Assembly: GCA_003696975.1 (NCBI GenBank) | Contig: RFGT01000121.1 | Location: forward strand, 1-34,710 | Source: Nitrospirota bacterium | Lineage (GTDB): Bacteria > Nitrospirota > Nitrospiria > Nitrospirales > UBA8639 | Length of the DNA stretch: 34,710 nucleotides | Reading direction: 5' to 3' | Shown: positions 15,632 through 21,419 of the stretch, one piece after another | Layout: each line of letters opens with the position of its first letter | Numbering within the stretch: the first letter of the stretch is position 1 | Translations under genes and position numbers: made by a program | The notes under the pieces: generated by a model | What the model saw: the letters and a program-made list of their open reading frames with translations, nothing else | Told to the model about the DNA's origin: nothing | Database searches by the model: none

Positions 15632-16834
15632 ATGCACACCCTGCACGCCCATATCACAAGGTCGCTTGCGGCACGAGAGGCTCAGCATCTTCGGCGCCAT
15701 CTCCACACACTCGACCGCTCAAGCGCGACTACAATCTCCGTTGCGGGACAGTCATTACTGTCCATGGCTTCCAACAATTATCTGGGGTTGGCGAATCATC
15801 CGGATGTCGTGCATGCCGCCCAGCAGGCATTGCTTGAATGGGGCGTGGGAGCCGGAGCGTCTCGGCTTATTTCGGGATCCTCCACATGCCATCACAGACT
15901 GGAAACAGCTCTGGCCCAATTCAAACGTATGGAAGCCAGCCTGGTGTTCAGTTCGGGATACATGACCAATGTCGGCATGATTCCCGCATTGATTGATCGC
16001 CACGGGCTCATTCTCGCCGATCGACTCTGTCATGCCAGCCTCTTGGATGGCTGTCGCTTGGCCAAAACCCCACTTCGGGTTTTCCATCACAACGATATGG
16101 ACCATCTGCGCAGGCTCCTGGCCAAGTATACGGCCAAACGCCCTGTCCTTGTCGTCACGGAAGGAGTCTTCAGCATGGACGGAGATCTCGCTCCTCTCCC
16201 CGAACTCCTGGAGTTGGTTGCCCAATATGACGCCACTCTCTATCTCGATGACGCTCACGGCACAGGAGTGATGGGCCCTCACGGGCGTGGAACACTTGAG
16301 CATTATCAAGCAGACAGGGGAAATGCCTCAACCTGGGCACAGGACGCTCTGGTTCAAATGGGAACCTTAAGCAAAGCGATCGGCGTAAGCGGTGGGTATA
16401 TCGTGGGGTCGCGCAATCTGATCGAGTATGCTCTCAATGCCGCTCGCTCATTTGTCTATTCCACGGCCCTTCCACCCGCCTTGGCCGCGGCTGCATACAC
16501 CGCACTCTCTCTTCTTGAGATGGAACCGGCGCGGCGGGCACGTCTCTGGGCAAACCGCGAGTATCTGTTTGCCGAGCTGACCGCTTTAGGGTTTCACCTA
16601 CCGCCCACGCAAAGCCCGATTCTTCCCATCGTTGTGCACACCCCGGAGCAGGCCATCCGTCTCGCTCAAGAGCTCTTCAAGCGAGGGATCTTCGCGCCCG
16701 CGATTCGCCCCCCCACGGTCCCCAAGCATCAATGCCGCTTGCGGTTGACTGTCACCGCCGACCACACGAGCGAGCAACTTCAGTACGTGGTGCAAGCGTT
16801 AAAGGACGCCGGCGAAGCTCTCAGACTTCTCTAA
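15632..16834 (+). CDS. bioF: 8-amino-7-oxononanoate synthase (BioF) or close alpha-oxoamine synthase
   Basis: BioF condenses pimeloyl-thioester with alanine, using pyridoxal phosphate, in biotin synthesis. I move the start from 15608 to ATG 15632, which has GGAAGG 8 nt upstream; the product has 400 residues. Visible motifs are SNNYLGLANHP, GAGASRLISGSS, DDAHGTGVMG and the cofactor lysine in GTLSKAIGVSGGY (about residue 248). No other biotin genes are in the window, so the related 2-amino-3-ketobutyrate CoA ligase remains possible, though the sequence style favours BioF. Its 3' end overlaps the convergent chelatase gene by 14 nt. Confidence 0.85.
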   Translation: MHTLHAHITRSLAAREAQHLRRHLHTLDRSSATTISVAGQSLLSMASNNYLGLANHPDVVHAAQQALLEWGVGAGASRLISGSSTCHHRLETALAQFKRMEASLVFSSGYMTNVGMIPALIDRHGLILADRLCHASLLDGCRLAKTPLRVFHHNDMDHLRRLLAKYTAKRPVLVVTEGVFSMDGDLAPLPELLELVAQYDATLYLDDAHGTGVMGPHGRGTLEHYQADRGNASTWAQDALVQMGTLSKAIGVSGGYIVGSRNLIEYALNAARSFVYSTALPPALAAAAYTALSLLEMEPARRARLWANREYLFAELTALGFHLPPTQSPILPIVVHTPEQAIRLAQELFKRGIFAPAIRPPTVPKHQCRLRLTVTADHTSEQLQYVVQALKDAGEALRLL

Positions 16835-17369
16835 CCAGAGACTCGCGTTCCCGATATTGGCTCTGAAAGTGTTGAATATGCTCAGCCAACATCCGGGCCA
16901 CGTGGGCCAGATCGAACGGCCACGCATAGGTTAAGGTTATGCCGGGATGTTGGGCCCGCAATTCAGCCAACTCCGCGGGGATTTCGAACTCCGCATGCGA
17001 CCCGCCTGGTGTATACATTGTCGAGACGACAATGATCTCCTGAACGCCTCGCGCAATCAACTGTTCAACCGCCTCTCGCAAGGTTGGAGTGCAGTATTCA
17101 TTGTACGCGAGACAAAATTGAGCTCCGTTCAGTAGCGGTTGGAGGTGGGCGGCGAGTGCCTCGAGCCCGGCTTGGTACGGATCGGTCTCCGGGGTACGCG
17201 GCCAGTGCCGAAGCTGCTGATCCAGCTCGCGTTCCTCTTGCGTGGCCGGTAATCCCGCCGCCTTTCGCTGCGTTTCTAATCGCTTGAGCTTCGCGACACG
17301 TTCGGAGGGATAATCTTTGGGAATCCCCCCATGCCCCACAAGAATAACTCCTAACGTCGAATGCTCCAT
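16821..17369 (-). CDS. CbiX/SirB-like sirohydrochlorin chelatase family protein
   Basis: CbiX-type chelatases insert cobalt or iron into sirohydrochlorin, for cobalamin or siroheme. The 182-residue protein has the N-terminal GVILVGHGG with the candidate metal-binding His at 13, and STMYTPGGSHAEFEIP with His at 125, both family hallmarks. Residues 20-65 form a charged insert that is longer than in minimal CbiX. AGAGAGG lies 8 nt before the ATG. The nearby nirA product needs siroheme, so an iron-inserting role is attractive, but the metal cannot be read from sequence. It overlaps the bioF end. Confidence 0.78.
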   Translation of the reverse strand: MEHSTLGVILVGHGGIPKDYPSERVAKLKRLETQRKAAGLPATQEERELDQQLRHWPRTPETDPYQAGLEALAAHLQPLLNGAQFCLAYNEYCTPTLREAVEQLIARGVQEIIVVSTMYTPGGSHAEFEIPAELAELRAQHPGITLTYAWPFDLAHVARMLAEHIQHFQSQYRERESLVREV

Positions 17370-17394: not shown

Positions 17395-18375
17395 TCATTG
17401 TAACAAATTTTCTCCCTTTCTGTCACAGTCCCCCGTGCGAGATCCCAGGAAGGCGAGTCGTTTGGGAAACGGATCGAGATATGTTTGGGCTTGCACAACG
17501 CGCAATCCCAATCGACGGGCATACCGGCGCACAAGCAGAATTGGAACAAGAAGGGGCACGCGTCGTTGTTCATATTCATGCAGTACATCCAGAAGCCGCG
17601 TGCGGTCAGCCGAGGAGAGATCCGCCTGGAAGACGGTCCCAAGTCTCCTGAGAAGCCTAGCGTGCTGCCGCCGTGTCGGCTTCACGCTGAGCGCCTCCAT
17701 GAACAAGACCCCATAGCGCTGCGCCAGAACGTGAAGGGGCCATCGATCTGCTTGAGCCAGCATGGCGCCAAGGCGTCGACACTGCTTGTGGTGATGCACC
17801 AGGAGGAGACAATAATTTCGTGCATGGAAGGCGGCTAATCTCGCATACGTGATCGGTTGGCGGTGAAGAAAATCCTTCCATCGGCGATATCCCCACACTC
17901 GCTCGAAGAAATGTTCTCGATGAGTCAGTTCTCGAAGGTGAATGTCTTCTTCAACGGGAAGGAGCGCAAAATGACGCCGTATCGTCCGAGCAAACAGGCC
18001 TGTGCCGGTACCAGTCACATTCCCCTGCCAGTCATAGACGCCGACCTGGTGCAGCCCACAGCTTGGAGAGCCTTTCTTGAAGATGTAGCCCGCAAGATCA
18101 AGCGCATCAAGTTCGCGAACACATCGAGCCGTAACGTGCTGCATTCGTGCTGTATAGTCGCGTCTCGAGTGCACGGTCACTAATCGTGGGTGCTCGGGCG
18201 AACCCATCAATTGCATCGGCTCGCGAGGAACCCCAAGCCCGGCTTCCACTTCAGGGCACACTGGCACCCATTCCACATAAGCCCTCAATGCATCAACAAG
18301 AAACGAAGCATGCTTGTGCCCTCCGTCGTATCGTACTTGTTCACCCATTAAGCATCGGCTGATTCCCAATCTCAC
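17395..18375 (-). CDS. DUF523-DUF1722 two-domain protein (TudS-like iron-sulfur domain plus YbgA domain)
   Basis: The start is best placed at GTG 18375, with GGAGAGG 6 nt upstream and a DUF523-like N-terminus (RLGISRCLMGEQVRYDGGHK), giving 326 residues. The ORF-track extension to 18462 is unsupported. DUF523 (1-150) has three cysteines at 8, 40 (CPEVEAGLGVPR) and 106 (KKGSPSCG). These match the ligands of the [4Fe-4S] cluster in TudS, a thiouracil desulfidase of this family. The C-terminal half (about 190-310) is the Arg/His-rich DUF1722 (YbgA) domain, whose role is unknown. The fusion itself is common. It lies 25 nt upstream of the chelatase gene and may share its message. Confidence 0.86.
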   Translation of the reverse strand: MRLGISRCLMGEQVRYDGGHKHASFLVDALRAYVEWVPVCPEVEAGLGVPREPMQLMGSPEHPRLVTVHSRRDYTARMQHVTARCVRELDALDLAGYIFKKGSPSCGLHQVGVYDWQGNVTGTGTGLFARTIRRHFALLPVEEDIHLRELTHREHFFERVWGYRRWKDFLHRQPITYARLAAFHARNYCLLLVHHHKQCRRLGAMLAQADRWPLHVLAQRYGVLFMEALSVKPTRRQHARLLRRLGTVFQADLSSADRTRLLDVLHEYEQRRVPLLVPILLVRRYARRLGLRVVQAQTYLDPFPKRLAFLGSRTGDCDRKGENLLQ

Positions 18376-18470
18376 GCTTTTCCTCTCCATCTCCATAGCT
18401 GTCCCAAGCAGGTTGGGGACATGGAAACTGCCAGGCCGATGATCCTCTGTGGTCCCATGCATTTTTTCGA

Positions 18471-18499
18471 TTGACGGTGTCGCAATCCTATGGTAGAAG
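18471..18499 (+). promoter_or_regulatory. nirC: Candidate promoter of the nirC-nirA leader
   Basis: TTGACG (18471-18476), a 17-nt spacer and TAGAAG (18494-18499) resemble a sigma70 promoter with a moderate -10. A start near 18506 would place the first leader hairpin at the very 5' end of the RNA, as in other nitrate/nitrite attenuator leaders. No clear sigma54 GG-N10-GC element was found. Bases 18376-18470 show nothing else I can assign. Confidence 0.5.
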
Positions 18500-18505
18500 A
18501 AGAGG

Positions 18506-18568
18506 CAAAGGAAAACAAAGTGGTTTTCCTGAATTGCTAGACAGCGAAATTGTCAGATAGGACAAGGG
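18506..18568 (+). promoter_or_regulatory. nirC: Tandem-hairpin element, ANTAR-type antiterminator candidate
   Basis: The first hairpin (18509-18530) has a perfect 8-bp stem, AGGAAAAC/GTTTTCCT, closed by the hexaloop AAAGTG. This fits the A1, G4 loop pattern I recall for ANTAR target RNAs. Nineteen bases later a second hairpin, TTGTC/GACAA with hexaloop AGATAG (18550-18565), has A1 but not G4. An alternative second hairpin, AGGAC/GTCCT (18559-18575, seven-base loop AAGGGAC), would use part of the following terminator stem, giving mutually exclusive folds. Which second hairpin is real cannot be decided by eye. Confidence 0.5.
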
Positions 18569-18606
18569 ACGTCCTTTCTCCTGGTGGTGAGAAAGGGCGT
18601 TTTTTT
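18569..18606 (+). terminator. Strong intrinsic terminator T1 in nirC leader
   Basis: ACGTCCTTTCTC pairs with GAGAAAGGGCGT over 12 bp (one G-U) around an 8-base loop, followed by seven T (18600-18606). It lies between the candidate promoter and nirC with no gene before it, so it is best read as an attenuator rather than the end of a gene. Confidence 0.85.
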
Positions 18607-18639
18607 ATGGCGTGCAACACCCTTCCCTCGTAACCGCCT

Positions 18640-18730
18640 CCTTCACACAAAGAGCGCGGTCAGGATGGTGAAGGCGTGTCACGCTTGAAACGGAGCACTC
18701 TGTGCGTTCCTAGCAACGCAGGCACAGAGT
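18640..18730 (+). promoter_or_regulatory. Two further hairpins between the leader terminators
   Basis: CCTTCAC (18640-18646) pairs with GTGAAGG (18668-18674) over 7 bp. ACTCTGTGC (18697-18705) pairs perfectly with GCACAGAGT (18722-18730). Alternatively an inner TGCGTT/AACGCA stem forms with hexaloop CCTAGC. Such a dense structure is more than a simple spacer. No second promoter is evident here. Confidence 0.45.
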
Positions 18731-18740
18731 AAGGGCAAGG

Positions 18741-18798
18741 GCGCCAGATTTTCCAGCGGGTTGAGATGTAATCCGCCTGGAAAATGCTGGCGCTTTTT
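18741..18798 (+). terminator. Strong intrinsic terminator T2 directly upstream of nirC
   Basis: GCGCCAG-ATTTTCCAG pairs with CTGGAAAAT-G-CTGGCGC over 16 bp with a single bulged G. Three inner pairs and a 13-base loop cap it, and five T follow. It ends 37 nt before the nirC ATG and its Shine-Dalgarno AGGAGG, so transcription must pass it for the operon to be expressed. Confidence 0.87.
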
Positions 18799-18835
18799 GT
18801 TTCGTCTCACGCACAACTCTTGAGGAGGATATCCC

Positions 18836-19729
18836 ATGTACCGCGATGATCTAGAACGAATGGCTCAGGTTTCACAGAAGAAAGCGCAGTATCTCTCTCA
18901 TTCGCTTGGAGGATATATCATCCTGTCGGCCTTGGCGGGAATCTATTTGGGATTGGGCATCTGCCTGATCTTCAGCATTGGAGCCCCGTTTGCAGCGGAA
19001 GATGCAGCAGCCTTGAAGCTTGTCATGGGAGCGTCGTTTGGCGTTGCCTTGACTCTCGTCATTTTTGCCGGGTCGGAATTATTTACCGGAAACAACATGG
19101 TCTGCACCGTTGGCGCGCTGTCCCGCACCATCACCTGGGGTCAAGTAGGATGCCTCTTTTTCTGGTCATTTGTCGGGAACATGGCGGGCTCATTGGGCAT
19201 TGCCTGGCTGATCGCCCAATCCGGGGTGTTGGCTGCTGCCCCCCAATCCCATCTCGTCATGAAGATTGCAGCCATGAAAATGCATGCGCCGGCCATGGAA
19301 CTCTTCATCCGGGGTATCCTGTGCAATCTTCTGGTTTGCCTCGCAGTGTGGACGGCCGCCCGTACAACTAATGACGCCGCAAAGATTCTCTTGATCTTCT
19401 GGTGTCTCTTCGCCTTCGTTGGGAGTGGATTCGAACACAGCATCGCCAATCAATCTGTCTTGGGGATCGCTCTGTTTCTCCCCCATGGAGAACCTATTTC
19501 ATGGATGGGATTCTTCCGGAATCAGCTTTGGGTGGGGCTTGGCAATATCCTCGGCGGAGCCGTTCTCGTGGGAGGGGCCTATTGGTTCGCAAGCCCATAT
19601 CGGCTGCCTCAAAGCCACAGTTTCTCCTCTACAAACTCGGCCACAACTCCAGAGACTTCGCGATCGTCTGATGAACCAGAGCAAGGATTGTCCATGCATA
19701 CCGGCATTCCACCGTTCCCAGCCGGATAA
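18836..19729 (+). CDS. nirC: Formate/nitrite transporter family channel, probable nitrite channel NirC
   Basis: FNT channels are pentameric inner-membrane pores for small monovalent anions. This 297-residue protein has six predicted helices, the family segment FAGSELFTGNNM (78-89) and the central His in GFEHSIANQ (His201). Adjacent nirA indicates nitrite as substrate. AGGAGG lies 8 nt before the ATG. After the last helix (about residue 250) there is a Ser/Thr/Pro-rich tail of about 45 residues that is longer than in most FNT proteins. Expression is probably limited by the two leader terminators. It ends 37 nt before nirA. Confidence 0.92.
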   Translation: MYRDDLERMAQVSQKKAQYLSHSLGGYIILSALAGIYLGLGICLIFSIGAPFAAEDAAALKLVMGASFGVALTLVIFAGSELFTGNNMVCTVGALSRTITWGQVGCLFFWSFVGNMAGSLGIAWLIAQSGVLAAAPQSHLVMKIAAMKMHAPAMELFIRGILCNLLVCLAVWTAARTTNDAAKILLIFWCLFAFVGSGFEHSIANQSVLGIALFLPHGEPISWMGFFRNQLWVGLGNILGGAVLVGGAYWFASPYRLPQSHSFSSTNSATTPETSRSSDEPEQGLSMHTGIPPFPAG

Positions 19730-19766
19730 ATCCCCAAAAGTTCTCAGGACAATAAGGAGGTGCGTT

Positions 19767-21419
19767 ATGAATAAAGTCGAGCTTCTCAAACAGGAAAAAG
19801 ATGGACTGGATGTCTACCGGGACCTCGTTCGCTATGCCAACCTGGGATGGGAGGCCATTTCCGAGGACGATGTCCAACGATTGAAATGGTATGGCCTCTT
19901 TCTGCGAAATCCGACCCCGGGGTTCTTTATGATTCGGGTGCGCATTCCCGGCGGTCGAGCTACATCCGCCCAGATTCGGACCTTGGCGGAATTAGCCACT
20001 TGTTTCGGCAATGGACTCGTCGATGTGACCACGCGGCAGCAAATTCAACTTCGGCACCTCCGTATTGAACATGTCCCGGAAGCGTTCGCGCGCATGGAGG
20101 AAGTGGGACTCACATCTTTGCAAACCGGCATGGACAATGTGCGCAATATCATGACCTGCCCAGTGGCCGGCTTGTCCCTCACGGAGATGCTGGATGCCAC
20201 CCCACTCGTTCAGGCTTTGACACAGGAAATCGTGGGAAACCGCGCCTACTCCAATCTTCCACGCAAATTCAATGTGGCGATTACCGGTTGCGTAGAAAAC
20301 TGCTTGCATGCAGAGACGCAAGATCTGGCACTGGTCCCCGCTCGTCAAACACAGGGCGGCGAGCAGATCTACGGGTTCAATGTGCTGGTGGGAGGCAAAC
20401 TAGGCTCTGGAGGCTATCGCATTGCCACGCCCCTCGATGTCTTCGTCACGCCGGAAGAAGTCATTCCCGTCGCTTGTGCCGTCATGACGGCTTTTCGCGA
20501 TTATGGATTTCGGGACTCGCGTAATACCGCCCGCTTGGCCTTCTTATTGGACGAATGGGGTGAAACACGGTTTCGTGTAGAGGTAGAGCGACGGCTGGGA
20601 CGAGCGTTACCTCCTGCGGGAGAAGACCTACGGAAAGCCACCGTGAATACCCATATGGGGATTTTTCGCCAAAAGCAATCCACCTTCAACTATGTGGGAC
20701 TGCACATCCCGGTGGGCCGAATGCCCGCCGATGACTTGCGGGAGCTTGCCCGATTGGCGGAAAGCTATGGGACTGGAGAGCTCCGACTCACCCCCCATCA
20801 AGCCGTGATCGTGCCCAACGTGCCAGACAAACATTTGGGCGACTTGATTGAGGAGCCGCTTCTCGCACGGTATGTCTATAATCCCTCACCGGTTCGACAG
20901 GGCTTAGTGAGTTGTGTCGGCAATGACTATTGCAATCTGGCGGTTATTGAAACCAAGAGTCGCGCCCTGGAAACCGCCAAAGCACTCGAGCAAAAAGTGC
21001 CCGCCGACATGAAACCTATTACCATGCACTGGTCTGGATGTCCGTCAGGGTGCGGAAACCATCTCGTAGCCGATGTAGGACTGCTTGGGAAGAAGGTCAA
21101 GATTCACGGGCAAATAGTGGACGCCGTAGATGTGTACGTTGGAGGGCGAAGCGGCCCACATGCCAAGATCCCCATTAAATTACTGGAAGACGTACCCTGT
21201 GACCGATTGGCCGACGTGCTGGCAGGGATTCTGCCCTACCATACCCGAGAAAAAATGTACCGGACCAAGGGAAAACCCAGGAAAAACGGGGCTTCCGTAC
21301 CTCCACGCTCGGCCCCAAGAGATGAGCGTCCCGGCAGAGGTCTCGAAGAAGGAACGATGTCTCAGTTCCCGTCTCCTCCCGCGCCTCTTTCTACGGGACA
21401 ACCAACTGGTGGATCGTAA
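19767..21419 (+). CDS. nirA: Ferredoxin-type assimilatory nitrite reductase
   Basis: NirA reduces nitrite to ammonium with six electrons, using siroheme and a [4Fe-4S] cluster. The track ORF begins inside nirC. The true start is ATG 19767, with AAGGAGG 6 nt upstream, giving 550 residues. The cluster/siroheme cysteines are intact: Cys383-x5-Cys389 (CVGNDYC) and Cys425-x3-Cys429 (SGCPSGCGNH). Two half-domains of nitrite/sulfite reductase type are visible (about 45-290 and 300-495). The last 50 residues are a Pro/Ser/Gly-rich tail not needed by the fold. Sulfite reductase is the main alternative, but nirC next door favours nitrite. It overlaps the convergent phosphoesterase gene by 29 nt. Confidence 0.92.
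   Translation: MNKVELLKQEKDGLDVYRDLVRYANLGWEAISEDDVQRLKWYGLFLRNPTPGFFMIRVRIPGGRATSAQIRTLAELATCFGNGLVDVTTRQQIQLRHLRIEHVPEAFARMEEVGLTSLQTGMDNVRNIMTCPVAGLSLTEMLDATPLVQALTQEIVGNRAYSNLPRKFNVAITGCVENCLHAETQDLALVPARQTQGGEQIYGFNVLVGGKLGSGGYRIATPLDVFVTPEEVIPVACAVMTAFRDYGFRDSRNTARLAFLLDEWGETRFRVEVERRLGRALPPAGEDLRKATVNTHMGIFRQKQSTFNYVGLHIPVGRMPADDLRELARLAESYGTGELRLTPHQAVIVPNVPDKHLGDLIEEPLLARYVYNPSPVRQGLVSCVGNDYCNLAVIETKSRALETAKALEQKVPADMKPITMHWSGCPSGCGNHLVADVGLLGKKVKIHGQIVDAVDVYVGGRSGPHAKIPIKLLEDVPCDRLADVLAGILPYHTREKMYRTKGKPRKNGASVPPRSAPRDERPGRGLEEGTMSQFPSPPAPLSTGQPTGGS

Follow-up and report, generated by a model that had tools for sequence, protein, structure and literature searches.

ANTAR-domain proteins that relieve transcription termination in leader RNAs are known from several bacterial systems. 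NasR at nasF of Klebsiella and NasT at nasA of Paracoccus and other bacteria both act on leaders of nitrate/nitrite genes, and the nasF leader carries a hexaloop with A at position 1 and G at position 4 (PMC3369931, PMC3795266). EutV of Enterococcus faecalis acts on eut leaders with dual hexaloop hairpins, P1 and P2, where P2 overlaps the terminator and several sites are found per genome (PMC3369931, PMC8934654). The eut linker between P1 and P2 is 5-12 nt long, and antitermination was lost when it was made 20 nt longer (PMC3369931, PMC8934654). A free P1, a P2 within the terminator, and loops with A1 and G4 make up the ANTAR antiterminator layout (PMC3369931, PMC8934654).

ANTAR nitrogen regulons were predicted by Ramesh et al. 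2012 in diverse bacteria of other phyla, with 13 predicted sites in six units in Desulfotomaculum acetoxidans and another regulon in Pelobacter carbinolicus (PMC3369931). According to the main text of that paper, these sites precede genes for PII, ammonium and urea transporters, nitrite reductase, and glutamine synthase; Nitrospira is not named there (PMC3369931). Papers on Nitrospira describe a conserved nitrogen cluster that is missing from comammox members (PMC12342949, PMC6311188), and one Nitrospira nitrite reductase is described as off under ammonium supply (PMC6606698, citing Ushiki 2018). In the open literature on Nitrospira, we found neither an ANTAR regulator nor the leaders described below, and no named regulator of the nitrogen cluster.

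The window analyzed here is a 34,710-nt stretch from a Nitrospirota bacterium (contig RFGT01000121.1). The leader of its nitrite operon (18471-18835) has a divergent minus-strand gene (17395-18462) on one side and nirC-nirA on the other, and a reading-frame check found no credible gene between the divergent gene and nirC. The nirC gene (18836-19729, plus strand) encodes a formate/nitrite transporter (Pfam PF01226, E 3.9e-66), and its product scores 218 bits against the NCBIfam NirC model, under the cut-off of 293. The start of nirA, a ferredoxin-type nitrite reductase gene (PF01077/PF03460), lies inside an open reading frame at 19419-21419 (plus strand); its best NCBIfam model is ferredoxin--nitrite reductase (545 bits versus a cut-off of 594). 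A gene for a CbiX-type chelatase is located near nirA at 16821-17369 (minus strand), and a functional link to the siroheme-requiring nirA is possible.

All leader elements are on the plus strand. The leader opens with a promoter-like pair, TTGACG-N17-TAGAAG (18471-18499), in which TTGACG (18471-18476) and TAGAAG (18494-18499) are separated by 17 nt. The -10 box is weak and the pair is absent from a consensus promoter scan, but leaders of relatives have the same -35/-10 spacing and better boxes at the same layout, e.g., TTGACG-N17-TATACA in Nitrospiraceae.

Site 1 begins with P1 (18509-18530), an 8-bp hairpin of sequence AGGAAAAC-AAAGTG-GTTTTCCT, located close to where the transcript is predicted to begin and recognized by sequence, folding, and conservation. 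Its hexaloop has A1, A2, and G4, like the nasF loop in A1 and G4. Next is a small linker hairpin (18540-18554), which is predicted by folding and has no conserved counterpart seen in relatives; it was rejected as the ANTAR partner of P1, and the hairpin at 18559-18575 takes that role. This P2, AGGAC-AAGGGAC-GTCCT, is a candidate antiterminator based on folding and conservation. Its loop has A1 and G4 but is 7 nt long. Terminator 1 (T1, 18569-18606) is visible in sequence and folding and has counterparts in relatives. Its arms ACGTCCTTTCTC/GAGAAAGGGCGT (18569-18600) form 12 pairs, including G-U, and are followed by T7. The 3' arm of P2 (18571-18575) lies within the 5' arm of T1, and the two hairpins are mutually exclusive. 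P1 and P2 are separated by 28 nt in the window and by about 18-30 nt in relatives, in contrast to 5-12 nt in E. faecalis eut; the shorter range is a trait of eut leaders and need not define the family.

Site 2 is less regular. A stable hairpin upstream of the second terminator (18697-18730), identified by folding and comparison with relatives, occupies the position of a P1-like hairpin in relatives but lacks an A1/G4 hexaloop, and a canonical P1 is absent here. P2 at this site (18734-18745), GGC-AAGGGC-GCC, is supported by folding and by relatives; its hexaloop fits, with A1, A2, and G4, and its stem is only 3 bp. Terminator 2 (T2, 18741-18798), seen in sequence and folding, is a 16-bp hairpin (18741-18793) that contains an inner hairpin and a single bulged G and is followed by T5. 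The 3' side of P2 (18741-18745) is part of its 5' arm, so that at each of the two sites P2 and an intrinsic terminator share bases and exclude each other.

Folding of the leader is stronger than chance. The z-scores are -4.78 for 18500-18607 and -5.58 for 18680-18800, and none of 200 shuffles was as good. An RNA that ends at 18577 folds P1 and P2, whereas an RNA that runs through the T-run folds P1 and T1. The predicted energies are -5.0 kcal/mol for P2 at T1 and about -18 kcal/mol for T1. A simple terminator scan over 7 kb gave a total no higher than shuffles and listed neither T1 nor T2, and the case for both therefore rests on folding and conservation. The earlier note on this DNA, made from the sequence alone, had described the promoter-like pair, the hairpins, both terminators with their T-runs, the absence of an intervening gene, and a first hexaloop with A1 and G4; all of this is borne out. 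What it had missed are the hairpins that share bases with the terminators: P2 at T1 (18559-18575) and, at T2, the hexaloop hairpin (18734-18745).

Hairpins and T-runs of this kind could be explained by terminators alone, with T1 and T2 insulating nirC-nirA or ending a short RNA and with no regulated readthrough. This is highly unlikely. The gene upstream is transcribed divergently, which leaves no plus-strand transcript that needs ending, and dozens of nirC leaders, as well as leaders of other nitrogen operons, have a conserved P1-P2 module ahead of the terminator.

The leader is instead very probably a tandem ANTAR-type transcription attenuator run by a GAF-GAF-ANTAR protein. The proposed mechanism, from binding through antitermination to the direction of control, is inferred and runs as follows. 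Transcription would start just upstream of P1. With the regulator inactive, the nascent RNA would fold T1, and any polymerase that escapes would reach T2, leaving nirC-nirA off. Under nitrogen need, the single GAF-GAF-ANTAR protein would bind the P1 hexaloop and then stabilize P2. The 3' arm of P2 is the 5' base of T1, and a stabilized P2 would block T1. T2 would be relieved in the same way by the hexaloop hairpin that overlaps it. What is sensed may be the nitrogen status of the cell in general, and not nitrite as such.

Of 236 Nitrospirales genomes, 82 have a nirC ortholog; the comparison drew on 69 upstream regions. Matching sites are found ahead of nirC in about 55 relatives; within the 69 regions, genus g2 and a few other leaders lack the site. 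A P1 hexaloop, defined as (A/G)A.G on a stem of at least 5 bp, occurs in 43 of 46 leaders, compared with a mean of 0.65 and a maximum of 3 in shuffles. Compensatory changes are observed in four of the five P1 pairs. The P1 covariation score is 0.452, against 0.171 in shuffled and no more than 0.143 in slid controls, and on 110 sites it is 0.403 versus 0.152 shuffled; P1 candidates were picked by stem and loop, which inflates their pairing percentages. The P1-P2 alignment has N-padded linkers, an artificial step that touches the linker only. P2 pairs are invariant in sites found with a model that favors them, and P2 has no covariation support because its pairs never vary.

The core GGAC-AA..-GTCC is kept at T1, with a 7-nt loop in the window's own family (f1), including its other members, and a 6-nt loop with A1 and G4 in Nitrospiraceae. 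Leaders of Nitrospiraceae mostly have one or two perfect sites with a hexaloop P2. One example reads CAGGC-AACGAC-GCCTG, about 28 nt, GGAC-AAAGGC-GTCC, and terminator, and continues with a second hairpin, GGAC-AACGAC-GTCC, that has a terminator of its own. In the P1-P2 linker of f1 leaders L007, L010, L011, L012, and L017, an AAAGAYG motif is kept, possibly as a third loop.

Leaders of relatives also bear on the state of site 2. Their P2 at T2 has 4-5 bp, often with a P1-like hairpin, and most of f1 has the stem GTGGC/GCCAC around the hexaloop (GTGGC-AARGGC-GCCAC). Compared with these, the 3-bp stem and missing canonical P1 in the window suggest a variant in which site 1 is a working ANTAR attenuator and site 2 has decayed, leaving T2 as a constitutive brake. 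This variant is possible, though on balance unlikely. The hexaloop and the GGCAAGGGCGCC core are exactly as in relatives, where the terminator closest to nirC carries GGCAARGGCGCC in families f1 and f2, and genera with sigma54-like promoters keep the T2 element alone, which indicates that it may work without site 1.

Beyond nirC, the P1-P2-terminator module precedes the nadE/glnB/glnD, amtB, urt, and nrt/cyn operons. Across the order, sites are located before nadE-amtB-glnB-glnD, porin-amtB, a urea transporter, a nitrate/cyanate-type ABC transporter, a NirB-like reductase, and nirC-nirA, and the switch fronts most nitrogen-assimilation genes in Nitrospirales, in genomes that encode a GAF-GAF-ANTAR protein in single copy. 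In 40 non-seed sites before other genes, the P1 loop has A1 in 35, A2 in all 40, and G4 in 39, and the P2 3' arm begins a strictly defined terminator in 26, versus 0.5 expected. The same protein would run this whole regulon, from the ammonium, urea, and nitrate/cyanate transporter operons (nadE-amtB-glnB-glnD and porin-amtB among them) to nirC-nirA.

Two covariance models of P1-P2 were used. The first (R1) matches the window leader, a score that is circular because this leader is in its seed, and weakly matches C25:6471-6529 (E 0.1). The second (R2) was trained on Nitrospiraceae alone, without the window's family; in the host genome it ranks the C25 site first (E 0.001) and does not list the window leader, a sign that the latter is a divergent member. 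The C25 site sits between the ANTAR gene, which it follows directly, and nadE-glnD, and it is the other credible site in the host genome. Weak matches of either model on C208, C165, C60, C69, C154, C188, and others have no terminator behind them and were dismissed as chance. In a phylum sample of 296 genomes, the R1 matches listed are all inside the order. Tandem ANTAR-type sites before a nitrate/cyanate-type ABC transporter were seen at L164 13215-13389, L191 5157-5312, and L187 9042-9230. A good-scoring site at L199 995-1050 has as neighbors a RuvB-like frame and a gene for chorismate mutase/prephenate dehydratase; with the RuvB-like frame following it, not every distal match fronts a nitrogen gene.

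No Rfam match at the gathering score was found for the window leader or the other regulon leaders, which speaks against a known RNA class in an attenuator whose intrinsic terminators are controlled by a small ligand, an RNA, or transcription-translation coupling and whose hexaloops are incidental. The strong non-ANTAR hairpin at 18697-18730 and the poor P2 in the T2 half would suit such an attenuator, and protein binding is only predicted. It is nevertheless very improbable: A1, A2, and G4 are nearly invariant while the P1 stems covary, which points to a loop-reading protein, and the sites track the ANTAR gene.

The host genome encodes exactly one ANTAR-domain protein (PF03861, E 2.3e-21), a 421-aa protein with two GAF domains and an ANTAR domain. 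It is 65-79% identical to full-length relatives, and its RNA-contact segment (RK..[ED]RAKG, QRQSM) is invariant in 38 of them. The ANTAR domain matches the solved structures of EutV, the putative antiterminator 1s8n, and NasR. Residues equivalent to EutV K143, M172, N173, and R175 are kept; EutV R168 and R177 are replaced by Q and S, with R or K adjacent. This protein is probably the regulator of these leaders. GnfR of Geobacter is a precedent. The first GAF domain is closest to EI-Ntr (PtsP) and NifA models. In other bacteria, the EI-Ntr GAF domain binds glutamine (PMC4848567), and glutamine is therefore a reasonable, if speculative, guess for the signal.

The earlier note had proposed antitermination, possibly at two successive terminators, with NasR and NasT as the known examples, and had suggested looking for NasT/NasR/NasS-like genes and comparing the stems across relatives. 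Antitermination at both terminators is the best reading, and it survives two of the note's own tests: the genome encodes an ANTAR protein, and P1 is conserved with compensatory changes. The identity of the regulator had to be revised. The sole ANTAR protein has neither a NIT domain, as in NasR, nor a receiver domain and NasS partner, as in NasS-NasT, and with no second ANTAR protein in the genome NasR and NasT were rejected. Unlike EutV, the protein has no identified two-component partner. The leader differs from those of nasF and nasA in its two terminators and in belonging to a wide nitrogen regulon. The note had also called the arrangement unusual and undescribed for this group; no report for Nitrospirota was found in the open literature, but multi-site ANTAR nitrogen regulons are known elsewhere (PMC3369931), which makes it less unusual than the note assumed. 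As such, ANTAR control of nitrogen genes is already known; what the Nitrospirota case would add is a regulator architecture that has been studied less, together with longer linkers. With one protein named as candidate and the RNA element defined, the switch becomes testable.

Nitrospirales include widespread nitrite oxidizers and comammox bacteria. Across 236 genomes, the ANTAR gene and a site (E at most 1e-3) occur together in 113, the gene alone in 48, the site alone in 6, and neither in 69. For the gene and the nirC ortholog, the counts are 79 (both), 82 (gene only), 3 (nirC only), and 72 (neither); each of the three nirC-only genomes is less than 90% complete. The genomes share a tree, and phylogeny therefore confounds the association between ANTAR gene and sites; p-values computed from these counts are not independent evidence. 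Among the 49 genomes of genus g29 that have ammonia monooxygenase, the ANTAR gene is found in 1, that one 54% complete, whereas g31, another ammonia monooxygenase group, keeps it in 12 of 12. The gene is thus nearly absent from one comammox group. Most comammox Nitrospira are known to lack nitrite assimilation, and this finding gives that absence a regulatory side. A tentative broader proposal is that a GAF-GAF-ANTAR protein whose EI-Ntr/NifA-like GAF domain senses glutamine or a comparable signal of nitrogen status is the master nitrogen regulator of Nitrospirales, acts at single or tandem terminators, and was lost with nitrite assimilation in one comammox group. No NxrA-like protein is found among the host's three molybdopterin-domain proteins (C213, C156, C233; genome 95% complete); the host may not oxidize nitrite and should not be called a nitrite oxidizer on this evidence.

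Some relatives raise the question of control at initiation. Genera g2, g4, g8, and g9 have sigma54-like -24/-12 boxes, several with an NtrC-type reading frame upstream, and the operon could be controlled mainly at initiation (sigma54/NtrC type), with antitermination playing a minor part. For the window this is improbable, as its promoter is of the TTGACG type with no -24/-12 boxes seen in the leader, and the sigma54-type leaders of g4 and g8 retain the P2-terminator element. Individual leaders with sigma54-like boxes before nirC are L002, L003, L004, L006, L008, and L016; in several sigma54-type relatives, the upstream frame ends in an NtrC/Fis-type HTH. Palindromes resembling GACAAAATTGTC are located upstream of nirC in L004, L006, and L008.
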